In this document: positions 18,910 to 22,354 of the stretch, piece by piece | Position numbering within the stretch: position 1 is the stretch's first letter | Layout: every line of letters begins with the position of its first letter | Source: Sneathiella chinensis | GTDB lineage: Bacteria > Pseudomonadota > Alphaproteobacteria > Sneathiellales > Sneathiellaceae | NCBI RefSeq assembly: GCF_012720115.1 | Contig: NZ_VNWN01000006.1 | Location: 186,001-250,000, forward strand | Direction: 5' to 3' | Length of the DNA: 64,000 nucleotides | Notes under the pieces: model-generated | Told to the model about the DNA's origin: nothing | Seen by the model: the letters and a program-made list of their open reading frames with translations, nothing else | Database searches by the model: none | Translations under genes and position numbers: made by a program

Positions 18910-20304
18910 ATGGGTGCTGCTTTATCAGTCTGTTGGCCATTGCTTTTGGGAATTGGCTTTTTGATGCTGGGCAACGGGCTGCAGGGCAGTCTGTTGGGTA
19001 TCCGCGCCAATCTTGAAGGCTTTCCCACGGCGGTAACCGGGTTTGTCATGTCCGGGTATTATCTCGGCTTTCTGATCGGGTCTATTGTCGCGCCCAAAAT
19101 TCTGGCGACGGTGGGCCATGTGCGGGTGTTTGCCGCGCTGGCCTCTCTTGCCTCCAGTTCTGCGCTGTTGCATGCGGTCATTCCCGATCCCTATATCTGG
19201 ACCGTTTTTCGGATTGTCACCGGGTTCAGCTTTGCCGGTTTGTATATCGTCAGTGAAAGCTGGCTGAATGATGCGGCCACCAACGAGACCCGCGGGCGGA
19301 TCCTGTCCTTCTACATGTTTATCGTTTATGGGGCCATGGCGGCGGGGCAGTTCCTGCTGACCGTTTCCGATCCCATGGGATACAACCTGTTCGTGATCAT
19401 TTCCGTACTGGTGTCGCTGGCCCTGATCCCGACGGCGCTGTCCGCATCGCCGGCGCCGTCCATTGAAACCCCGAAGAAGCTGGGTATTCGCAGGTTGTTC
19501 GCCATTTCGCCGCTGGGCGTGGTGGGGATGACCGTTGTCGGTGTGGCGCAAGGAGCGTTTTTCTCGATGGCGGCGGTGTATGGCAGCATGATCGGCCTGA
19601 CCCTGCCGCAAATTTCCCTGTTTATCTGTGTGTCGATTATCGGCGGAGCGGTTCTGCAAATGCCGATCGGGCGTCTTTCCGACCGGTTTGATCGCCGTAA
19701 GGTCCTGACGGTTGTTACCCTGTTGAGTGCAGCCGCGGCGACCCTTGTCCTGTTTGTGGAGGGGATGGACAGCAAAATCCCGTTCATGGTGGTGGTCACC
19801 CTTTTTGGCGGGCTCAGCATGCCGCTTTATTCCCTGTGTATTGCCCATACCAACGACCATCTGGAACCGGATGAAATGGTGGCGGCCAGCAGCGGGCTGA
19901 TCCTGATGAACGGGATGGGCGCAGTGGCGGGTCCGTTCCTGATTTCCCTGCTGATGGCAAGTTACGGGGCGATGGCGTTCTTTTCCTTCCTAACCGTGGC
20001 GCATCTGTTCATCGGCATTTTCGCGATTGTCCGGATGAGCATGAGCGAGCCGACACCGCTGGAAGACCAAAACGACTTCGTGGCCATGCCGGTGCGGTCC
20101 GGACCGATTGCGGCCACCATGAACCCGGAGGCCGAGGAATGGGATGAGGAGCCGGACCTTGAGCCGGAGCCAAATACCTGGTTCACCGGCCTCAGCAAGG
20201 CGTCCATGTCCATCCTTGAAGACAGCGGGGATGACGATGACGAGGAAGCCATGCATGGTGACCTGACGGATGATGGTCCCGCCCTTTGGGGGCGAAACGG
20301 CTAA
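18910..20304 (+). CDS. MFS transporter with long acidic cytoplasmic tail
   Basis: Twelve-helix major facilitator, with the first helix starting at residue 4, the A-motif-like loop GRLSDRFDRRKV between helices 8 and 9 (around residue 255), and the family-typical GFVMSGYYLGFLIGS and ESWLNDAATNETRGR segments seen in YcaD-like proteins. After the last helix (about 375) comes a tail of some 90 residues with strongly acidic runs (EEWDEEPDLEPEP and EDSGDDDDEEA), which is unusual for the family. The substrate cannot be predicted. The ATG at 18910 has no clear ribosome site. No terminator was found before the downstream unknown gene. Confidence 0.8.
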   Translation: MGAALSVCWPLLLGIGFLMLGNGLQGSLLGIRANLEGFPTAVTGFVMSGYYLGFLIGSIVAPKILATVGHVRVFAALASLASSSALLHAVIPDPYIWTVFRIVTGFSFAGLYIVSESWLNDAATNETRGRILSFYMFIVYGAMAAGQFLLTVSDPMGYNLFVIISVLVSLALIPTALSASPAPSIETPKKLGIRRLFAISPLGVVGMTVVGVAQGAFFSMAAVYGSMIGLTLPQISLFICVSIIGGAVLQMPIGRLSDRFDRRKVLTVVTLLSAAAATLVLFVEGMDSKIPFMVVVTLFGGLSMPLYSLCIAHTNDHLEPDEMVAASSGLILMNGMGAVAGPFLISLLMASYGAMAFFSFLTVAHLFIGIFAIVRMSMSEPTPLEDQNDFVAMPVRSGPIAATMNPEAEEWDEEPDLEPEPNTWFTGLSKASMSILEDSGDDDDEEAMHGDLTDDGPALWGRNG

Positions 20305-20327
20305 GCCGATTATCTCCTTAAAGTTGT

Positions 20328-20447
20328 AAAATTAAATTCCGTTTCTATTTACAGTGAGGCGGTGCCGGGAGTTTCGCTCTTTGGCATTGCATGCCCGCGG
20401 ATTTCGCGTCGCGGCCCATGACTGTAACCAAGGAACGGAATTTTCGA
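20328..20447 (+). repeat. Leader copy 1 upstream of the first tandem paralog
   Basis: About 120 bp that resembles the leader at 21288-21413. Shared blocks, in order, are CTTAAA plus an AT-rich stretch, TTTCTA-TT-CAG-GAGGC, a GC-rich middle, and the pre-start block TGTAACCAAGGAACGGAATT immediately before the ATG. The last block is 19/20 identical between copies and contains the likely ribosome site AAGGAACGG. This indicates that promoter and translation start were duplicated together with the gene. Confidence 0.65.
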
Positions 20448-21215
20448 ATGTATCTAACCCCCAATGACCTAAAGACTGCCAGTGACCGGGCCATCGTGAC
20501 CCGCGAAGTCAATTACCTTCCTCATTTCATTGTGAAAAAGATCAGCGCGGGATACAGCGCCGAACCGGTGCTTATCTGGCTTACCAAGGTGCAGGAGAGA
20601 CGGCATGCTCCCAAATGGCCCGTGTGGGATTTTTCGCGATATGGCGGATCCCAAATGGAAGGACAGTATTTACCGATCTGCTCCGGCATTGCCGAGGGCA
20701 TCAGGGTATGGGCCCGACATCTGGCTGACTTGCCGATGGAGGACCTACTTACAAAACTGAACAGCAATTCTCTGTTCAGGCGGCAGGCAATGGAGAAGTT
20801 GGAAGGAAAGACACCTGTCGCTCTGCAGGAACGAGAAGAGTGGGAGGAATGGATGTGTAATCGTGAAAAATGCGAGTTTTTCATGGCGGATGCGTTTGAA
20901 CAGTCCCCGGACCCGAAGGCCTTCCATTTCACATTGGATTACTTGGAGGTGATTGGGCGAGTTTTACTTGATGTTCATTTCAGATGTGGAAATCAACAAG
21001 CAACCGAGCGCATGACCGGGGCGTTAAAGGCCCTGCATGAGTTGGTGGAGGCGGTTAGGAACGCAGTAGTTCACGGTGAGGCAGTAGAAGAGCCTGAACA
21101 GCTAAGTGTTGATGAGCAGTTGAGATTTCTAAAATCGCACCGTTTGATATCAGAAAACGATGACGAAGACCGGATTGATATTCTCCTTGCCGCCTTGAAG
21201 GGTAGATTGGAGTGA
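20448..21215 (+). CDS. Unrecognised protein, tandem paralog 1 (255 aa)
   Basis: No family recognised. Soluble, no signal peptide or membrane helix. Conserved with its neighbour are MYL-P-DLK at the start, GYS-EP--WL (35-45), VWD--RYGGS (59-68), IC-G---GI--WA (77-89), FHFTL-YLE in the middle of the protein, and an amphipathic C-terminal helix region. The C-terminal half is helix-rich and acidic. The start is ATG 20448, because similarity and a shared AAGGAACGG ribosome site meet there; an upstream ATG at 20418 lies outside the conserved block. It is flanked by the MFS gene and by paralog 2, 198 bp downstream. Function is unknown. Confidence 0.7.
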   Translation: MYLTPNDLKTASDRAIVTREVNYLPHFIVKKISAGYSAEPVLIWLTKVQERRHAPKWPVWDFSRYGGSQMEGQYLPICSGIAEGIRVWARHLADLPMEDLLTKLNSNSLFRRQAMEKLEGKTPVALQEREEWEEWMCNREKCEFFMADAFEQSPDPKAFHFTLDYLEVIGRVLLDVHFRCGNQQATERMTGALKALHELVEAVRNAVVHGEAVEEPEQLSVDEQLRFLKSHRLISENDDEDRIDILLAALKGRLE

Positions 21216-21287
21216 AGAGGATGGAAAGTCTGCCGACAAAAGAGCTGTTCTGCCCTTTTTGGAATAAGTGTCTAATGAAAGATGACG

Positions 21288-21413
21288 CTTAAATTTCTAA
21301 AAATAATTTTTCTACTTGCAGAGAGGCAAAGCAGAGCCCGTTATGCGCAGCTTTTCCTGCTGCGGTTTTCAGGCTGCTGCGCCAGTTTGTAACCAAAGAA
21401 CGGAATTATTGAA
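21288..21413 (+). repeat. Leader copy 2 upstream of the second tandem paralog
   Basis: Counterpart of the leader at 20328-20447, with the same order of blocks, ending in TGTAACCAAAGAACGGAATT just before the ATG. The AT-rich first third (CTTAAATTTCTAAAAATAA) is a plausible promoter region in both copies. Confidence 0.65.
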
Positions 21414-22190
21414 ATGTATCTAATGCCCAGCGATTTAAAAATTGGCTGCGACCGGACATTCGCCACCGGAAATTCGAATTATTTTGTTAAATTCATTTTG
21501 AATAAAGTCAGGTCTGGATACAGCATCGAACCGCTCATTGACTGGTTGGTTGAGGTGCTGGACAGGCGGCGTGCAGCCATTCTTCCCGTTTGGGATTATC
21601 CACGCTATGGCGGCTCGCGGATTGAAGCTAAATACCGTTGGATTTGTTATGGAATGACGAGTGGCATAGTTGCATGGGCTAAGAGCCTAACCGATCTTTC
21701 TAAGGATCAAATGCTACATACCCTACAGACGGCTCTTCAGTATCAGGGGCATCAGGTGGTGGGTGCGCCAATCGATTTGTCAGATAATGAGTGGTGGAGG
21801 GGGATTGTATGGCAAGAACGGCTGGAGAGTTCGAAGGCGGAAGAGTTTGACAGGTGCACTCTCCCACAAGGTTTTCATTTTACACTGGGGTACTTGGAGG
21901 CGATTACGGAAGGACTACTCCAAATCCAGGCCAGAAACGCTTGTCTGCTTGTTGCGTCAGGGATCAACGAAGCACTCCGTGCTTTGTGCAAACTGGTGAT
22001 GGAGGTTAAGGCCGCCATGTTTTTGGCATTTAATGGGGAATATTTGGATAGCCCTGATTTGTTGCCGCAAAGGCAGCAAACTGTTGGCTGGATTCTGCAG
22101 AGAGAAAGGGAGGCCGAGAACCGGATCGCGGGCCTTATTGTTCGTCTGGAGGAGGAAGGGCACAGTCCCGATGAACCGCCTGCGGCTTGA
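21414..22190 (+). CDS. Unrecognised protein, tandem paralog 2 (258 aa)
   Basis: Same family as the gene just upstream: counted by eye, 47 of the first 95 residues are identical without a gap, and FHFTL-YLEAI and a helical, AL-AL--LV motif recur later. The two differ most in the middle (about 96-140) and at the C-terminus, where this copy is less acidic. The start ATG 21414 is fixed by the conserved leader and the MYL-P-DLK start. No domain, signal or membrane helix could be recognised. Each copy appears to have its own promoter and ribosome site, so they may be regulated alike but expressed independently. nadE follows after 164 bp. Confidence 0.7.
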   Translation: MYLMPSDLKIGCDRTFATGNSNYFVKFILNKVRSGYSIEPLIDWLVEVLDRRRAAILPVWDYPRYGGSRIEAKYRWICYGMTSGIVAWAKSLTDLSKDQMLHTLQTALQYQGHQVVGAPIDLSDNEWWRGIVWQERLESSKAEEFDRCTLPQGFHFTLGYLEAITEGLLQIQARNACLLVASGINEALRALCKLVMEVKAAMFLAFNGEYLDSPDLLPQRQQTVGWILQREREAENRIAGLIVRLEEEGHSPDEPPAA

Positions 22191-22354
22191 TAACAAGCCT
22201 GCTGCCAAAAAGGGTGGTCCTGTCCGGTTGAGCCGCCGGGCAGGGCCGCTGTTTTGTTCGGGGAGGGGGCGTTTGGCCGAAAAAGCCTGTAAAAAAGTGG
22301 TGTTGGATGAAAACACCCATTGCTGCCACGGGCGGAGGGGGGTAAAAACCGGGT

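Follow-up and report, generated by a model that had tools for sequence, protein, structure and literature searches.

In Sneathiella chinensis, some 2 kb of DNA lying between the gene of an MFS transporter and nadE carries two tandem genes of a protein family seen nowhere else in our searches, each preceded by a homologous leader of about 130 nt, and we consider it somewhat better than an even bet that the whole represents a horizontally acquired orphan family, present in duplicate, whose leaders gate translation. The segment would have been gained in this lineage only, entering between the transporter gene and nadE, and each copy would act as an independent unit in which a leader precedes the coding sequence for a soluble, all-helical product about 255 residues long, with a terminator-like stem-loop closing the second copy. 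Once transcribed, each leader would most likely form one long hairpin with a conserved block as its 3' arm, and translation would stay low until this hairpin is opened or processed, the same post-transcriptional gate thus acting on both copies. Coordinates below refer to the window, that is, the whole 64,000-nucleotide stretch of DNA that was analysed.

The two genes lie on the forward strand at 20,448–21,215 (gene 1, 255 codons) and 21,414–22,190 (gene 2, 258 codons), and both open reading frames are present where the preliminary description of this DNA had put them; for gene 1, the mechanical list of open reading frames sets the 5' end further out, at 20,391. Their products share 47 of the first 95 residues (49%), as had been described, and the homology further spans 254 residues, covering the whole length of the proteins at 35% identity (E = 4e-48). 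Between the genes, pN is 0.40 and pS is 0.70, the synonymous sites being near saturation. Because pN lies well below pS, both are real, selected protein genes; this sequence comparison points to purifying selection on both proteins, and the duplication behind the pair is not recent. AlphaFold, with only the two sequences as input, modelled both proteins as all-helical, with moderate confidence (pLDDT 73 and pTM 0.75 for protein 1; pLDDT 64 and pTM 0.67 for protein 2), and hydropathy indicated no transmembrane segment in either protein. Both products are therefore predicted to be soluble, all-helical proteins.

The homology extends upstream of the coding sequences. The preliminary description had proposed a duplicated stretch of about 120 bp, and the likeness in fact covers about 130 bp 5' of each ATG, corresponding to leader 1 (20,317–20,447, forward strand) and leader 2 (21,287–21,413, forward strand), with a local alignment score of 38.0 that none of 2000 dinucleotide-preserving shuffles reached (mean 9.2, sd 1.4, maximum 17.5). 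The portion upstream of -40 alone scores 22.0, as against 18.0 or less in all 2000 shuffles. The leaders share a block, TGTAACCAA[G/A]GAACGGAATT, that is identical at 19 of 20 positions, as had been noted, and that occupies 20,423–20,442 in leader 1 (TGTAACCAAGGAACGGAATT) and 21,388–21,407 in leader 2 (TGTAACCAAAGAACGGAATT), both on the forward strand; a search of the 3.5-Mb genome for further copies, with up to three mismatches allowed, returned exactly these two sites. Searches for the leader in the same genome, in congeners by means of an RNA model, and in viral contigs likewise found only the two known copies. Overall, the two leaders carry different bases in 46 of the 139 ungapped columns (33%), compared with 70% at synonymous sites, and therefore either selection or, as could also be the case, gene conversion has kept them alike.

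It had been suggested that promoter and ribosome site were duplicated together and that the regulation was kept while the proteins diverged. The part of this proposal that stands is the co-duplication of the leader and its slower divergence relative to synonymous sites. The promoter part finds no support: the stretch yielded no sigma-70-like site, and what is demonstrably conserved is an RNA-type hairpin over the putative ribosome-binding site.

Leader 1 is predicted to form a single long hairpin (MFE -50.2 kcal/mol, z -3.7) with arms at about 20,334–20,354 and 20,422–20,443, and leader 2 folds into the same hairpin (MFE -41.1 kcal/mol, z -2.3), the inner sequence having diverged and a bulge being formed because leader 2 has no counterpart of a paired CCG of leader 1. 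The 3' arm of each hairpin is the conserved 20-nt block, including the putative ribosome-binding region, a relation that the preliminary description had overlooked, and the upstream arm of leader 1 complements this block (AAATTCCGTTTCT / AGGAACGGAATTT). The putative ribosome-binding bases of leader 1 (20,432–20,442) have an unpaired probability of about 0, and those of leader 2 are mostly near zero. The folding energy by itself is ordinary for this G+C-rich window, so that it is the shuffles and a permutation test that bear the argument for the hairpin. Permuting the bases of the 46 substituted columns left only 0.2% of the versions of leader 2 as stable as the real one (p = 0.002), and the corresponding figure for leader 1 was a marginal 4.8% (p = 0.048). 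Substitutions between the leaders thus preserve the pairing better than permuted ones do, and at 6 of the 22 pairs of the consensus hairpin both sides have been substituted with pairing retained, a covariation that is minimal because the leader sequences number only two. No Rfam family reached its gathering score in a search of the stretch, the best matches being at chance level. We conclude that the leader hairpin probably hides the ribosome-binding site and so gates translation; if transcription started inside the leader, the mRNA would be without the full hairpin.

The same inverted symmetry might instead work as DNA, either serving an autoregulatory protein as its operator or providing a recombination site that moves leader-gene cassettes. 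A long imperfect palindrome ahead of each gene, with the unit standing in tandem inside an insertion, is what such a site would look like. However, a search of both strands of the two leaders and of the 3' end found no integron attC core (RYYYAAC/GTTRRRY), the right edge of the insertion has no third hairpin, and the genome holds no other copy. Furthermore, the part of the palindrome that is conserved is the arm beside the start codon, as expected of a ribosome-site element. We therefore regard a role at the DNA level as unlikely, and favour translational gating by the leader RNA.

The statement that the motifs of these proteins match no known family held under profile, sequence, and fold searches, with no clear family assignment and no significant match to a PDB structure for the predicted models. 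Scans of both proteins against Pfam, NCBIfam, PHROGs, and PADLOC gave nothing above noise, as did a search of PDB sequences that used protein 1 and a profile of the pair. Single weak matches of protein 1 only, to YdjO (E = 0.033) and phrog_18101 (E = 0.078), were set aside as noise. The candidate PADLOC model PDC-S48 matched protein 1 at E = 0.02 and protein 2 not at all, and no PADLOC model of a known anti-phage defence system matched beyond that E-value. With both models, the best fold matches were to 14-3-3 proteins and designed helical repeats in the PDB, none with an E-value below 0.05 and most with a TM score of about 0.2, and to a phage tail protein in a viral set (E = 0.03, TM 0.17); all of these were rejected. 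No homologue of the pair was found in the congeners or in one genome of a sister genus, and the pair profile detected none among 385 sampled genomes of the class and 398 sampled from the phylum; one match in the class sample (E = 0.005) covers 46 residues with two internal stops and was attributed to chance. Motif-seeded scans of 84,980 GTDB species and of viral contigs also returned no homologue, these scans requiring a match to a short conserved peptide, so that relatives at 35–40% identity may escape them. A tblastn search against phages and plasmids found no homologue either, and a single 60-bp match of the insert DNA to phages (E = 0.05) was ascribed to chance.

One lead emerges from protein 1 itself. 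It contains E167-V-I-G-R171, an E-x3-[KR] motif, within a helix at 163–179, and R204-N-A-V-V-H209, which has the R-x4-6-H form, arginine being followed by a polar residue, that is expected of HEPN proteins where their helix 3 ends, at the end of a helix at 183–209 that is followed by a loop and then the final helix. This order of motifs in consecutive helices agrees with the arrangement of the HEPN domain (PMC3710099). In protein 2, the R, N, and H have all been lost (VKAAMFLAFNG), and with them the R-x4-6-H motif. Protein 1 could accordingly be imagined as an HEPN RNase toxin and protein 2 as a dead paralogue restraining it, the two forming a toxin-antitoxin or abortive-infection pair that arose through duplication, which would suit an orphan, horizontally acquired gene under tight predicted gating. 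On the other hand, shuffling protein 1 produces such a motif set in 5.8% of versions; neither Pfam (E up to 10) nor PADLOC yielded a matching HEPN model; 52 of 1000 shuffles scored as well as protein 1 against an Abi_C profile built here; and the top fold matches of the models included no HEPN structure, the best E-value being 0.054. An hhalign comparison gave less than 1% probability for HEPN, in a setting where the positive control, two true HEPN families, likewise failed to link, and is uninformative. In addition, each gene has its own leader, unlike the usual toxin-antitoxin operon. A toxin and restrainer pair thus seems doubtful, and the motif set in protein 1 is a lead rather than an assignment. 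Within the favoured reading of an acquired orphan family, one may speculate that the genes are accessory ones of a mobile or conflict-related kind with low expression, most likely so among possible roles, and that protein 1 may belong, as a divergent form, to the HEPN-type RNases, with protein 2 as a paralogue that has become inactive; both the RNase activity and the conflict-related role are speculative. For the stronger proposal of a new two-copy conflict module, in which, of two members of an unseen family of helical RNase-like proteins, one has kept and the other has lost an HEPN-type active site, and translation of each depends on the opening of a shared type of leader hairpin, we see only a very slim chance.

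The preliminary description missed that the pair lies in an insertion and is both lineage-specific and compositionally foreign. The spacer between the MFS gene and nadE measures 2050 bp here, as against 70–96 bp in 21 of 23 congeners with a readable junction, in all of which nadE follows the MFS gene. From the spacer lengths and from the right flank aligned to congener spacers, the inserted segment runs approximately from 20,305 to 22,287. Its left edge falls within 13 bp, between the MFS stop (20,304) and the first leader (about 20,317), and coincides with the start of the homology between the leaders; its right edge is at or before about 22,288, where likeness to the ancestral MFS-nadE spacer resumes. 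Inside the segment, 3' of gene 2, lies a strong intrinsic-terminator-like stem-loop (22,213–22,250, forward strand, 16 pairs), and beyond it the promoter-like TTGCTG...TAAAA before nadE is intact. This element (TTGCTG with TAAAA about 17 nt later, 22,316–22,347) is conserved in many congeners despite a highly variable spacer. The remaining two congeners have spacers of 1067 bp (G017) and 310 bp (G007) and no homologue of the pair; the former insert encodes an unrelated 261-residue solute-binding-like protein (L015 496–1281, minus strand; PF00497 below cut-off), and the latter (L029) consists of 310 bp of other DNA. The spacer thus tolerates insertions repeatedly. The flanking genes are housekeeping ones: a phosphoribosyltransferase-like gene and the MFS transporter upstream, and NAD synthase (nadE) downstream, followed by what we take, from reading the translations, to be gltX- and cysS-type genes. 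The MFS transporter (18,910–20,304) has an acidic C-terminal tail ending in DDDDEEAMHGDLTDDGPALWGRNG, the last residues of which (RNG-like) are kept in several congeners.

Codon usage in both genes is foreign to the neighbourhood. A codon-adaptation-like index is 0.48 for gene 1 and 0.44 for gene 2, compared with 0.65–0.75 in ten neighbouring genes, and GC3 is 0.57 and 0.53, compared with 0.62–0.73 in the same ten. No transposase or integrase was found at the insert, and neither terminal inverted repeats nor a target-site duplication was found, the flanks having no word longer than 7 nt in common. The segment was nevertheless probably acquired horizontally. That the pair is instead old in the order and lost elsewhere, with a composition made odd by low expression, is very improbable: boundaries free of mobile-element scars would agree with it, but it requires the pair to have been lost from 21 sequenced congeners, leaving a short spacer in which the promoter-like sequence of nadE is intact, the codon usage is distant from that of all neighbours, and the one sister-genus genome shows no homologue.

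Among known systems, HEPN RNases and Abi_C (PF14355) resemble protein 1 in that E-x3-[KR] and R-N-x3-H stand in successive helices of a protein predicted to be helical, but there is no profile or fold match here, and the partner gene is a paralogue rather than an MNT nucleotidyltransferase. Bacterial ORFans have no detectable relatives, are atypical in composition, sit in lineage-specific insertions, and may form small families by duplication; orphan insertions are common in bacteria, and lineage-specific orphan genes are mostly single copies with nothing to compare. The pair has these same traits, in its relatives, composition, insertion, and duplication, and in this it is like the taxonomically restricted genes of bacteria, some of which form clusters of homologues, as in Bacillus (PMC10003748). 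The unusual part of the locus is the paired leaders: here, unlike in those genes, each copy has retained a structured leader, about 130 nt long, in which divergence is slower than at synonymous sites. Leader hairpins that sequester the ribosome site occur in RNA thermosensors, toxin mRNA leaders, and the expression platforms of riboswitches. The likeness to these lies in a long hairpin in which the putative ribosome-binding bases 5' of the start codon are paired, whereas the present leader has no Rfam match and its sequence is unique to this genome in the genus. Duplication has provided two independent samples of both protein and leader, so that selection can be measured on both without an outside homologue, and if the gate is real, this would be an orphan family that arrived with its own translational control.
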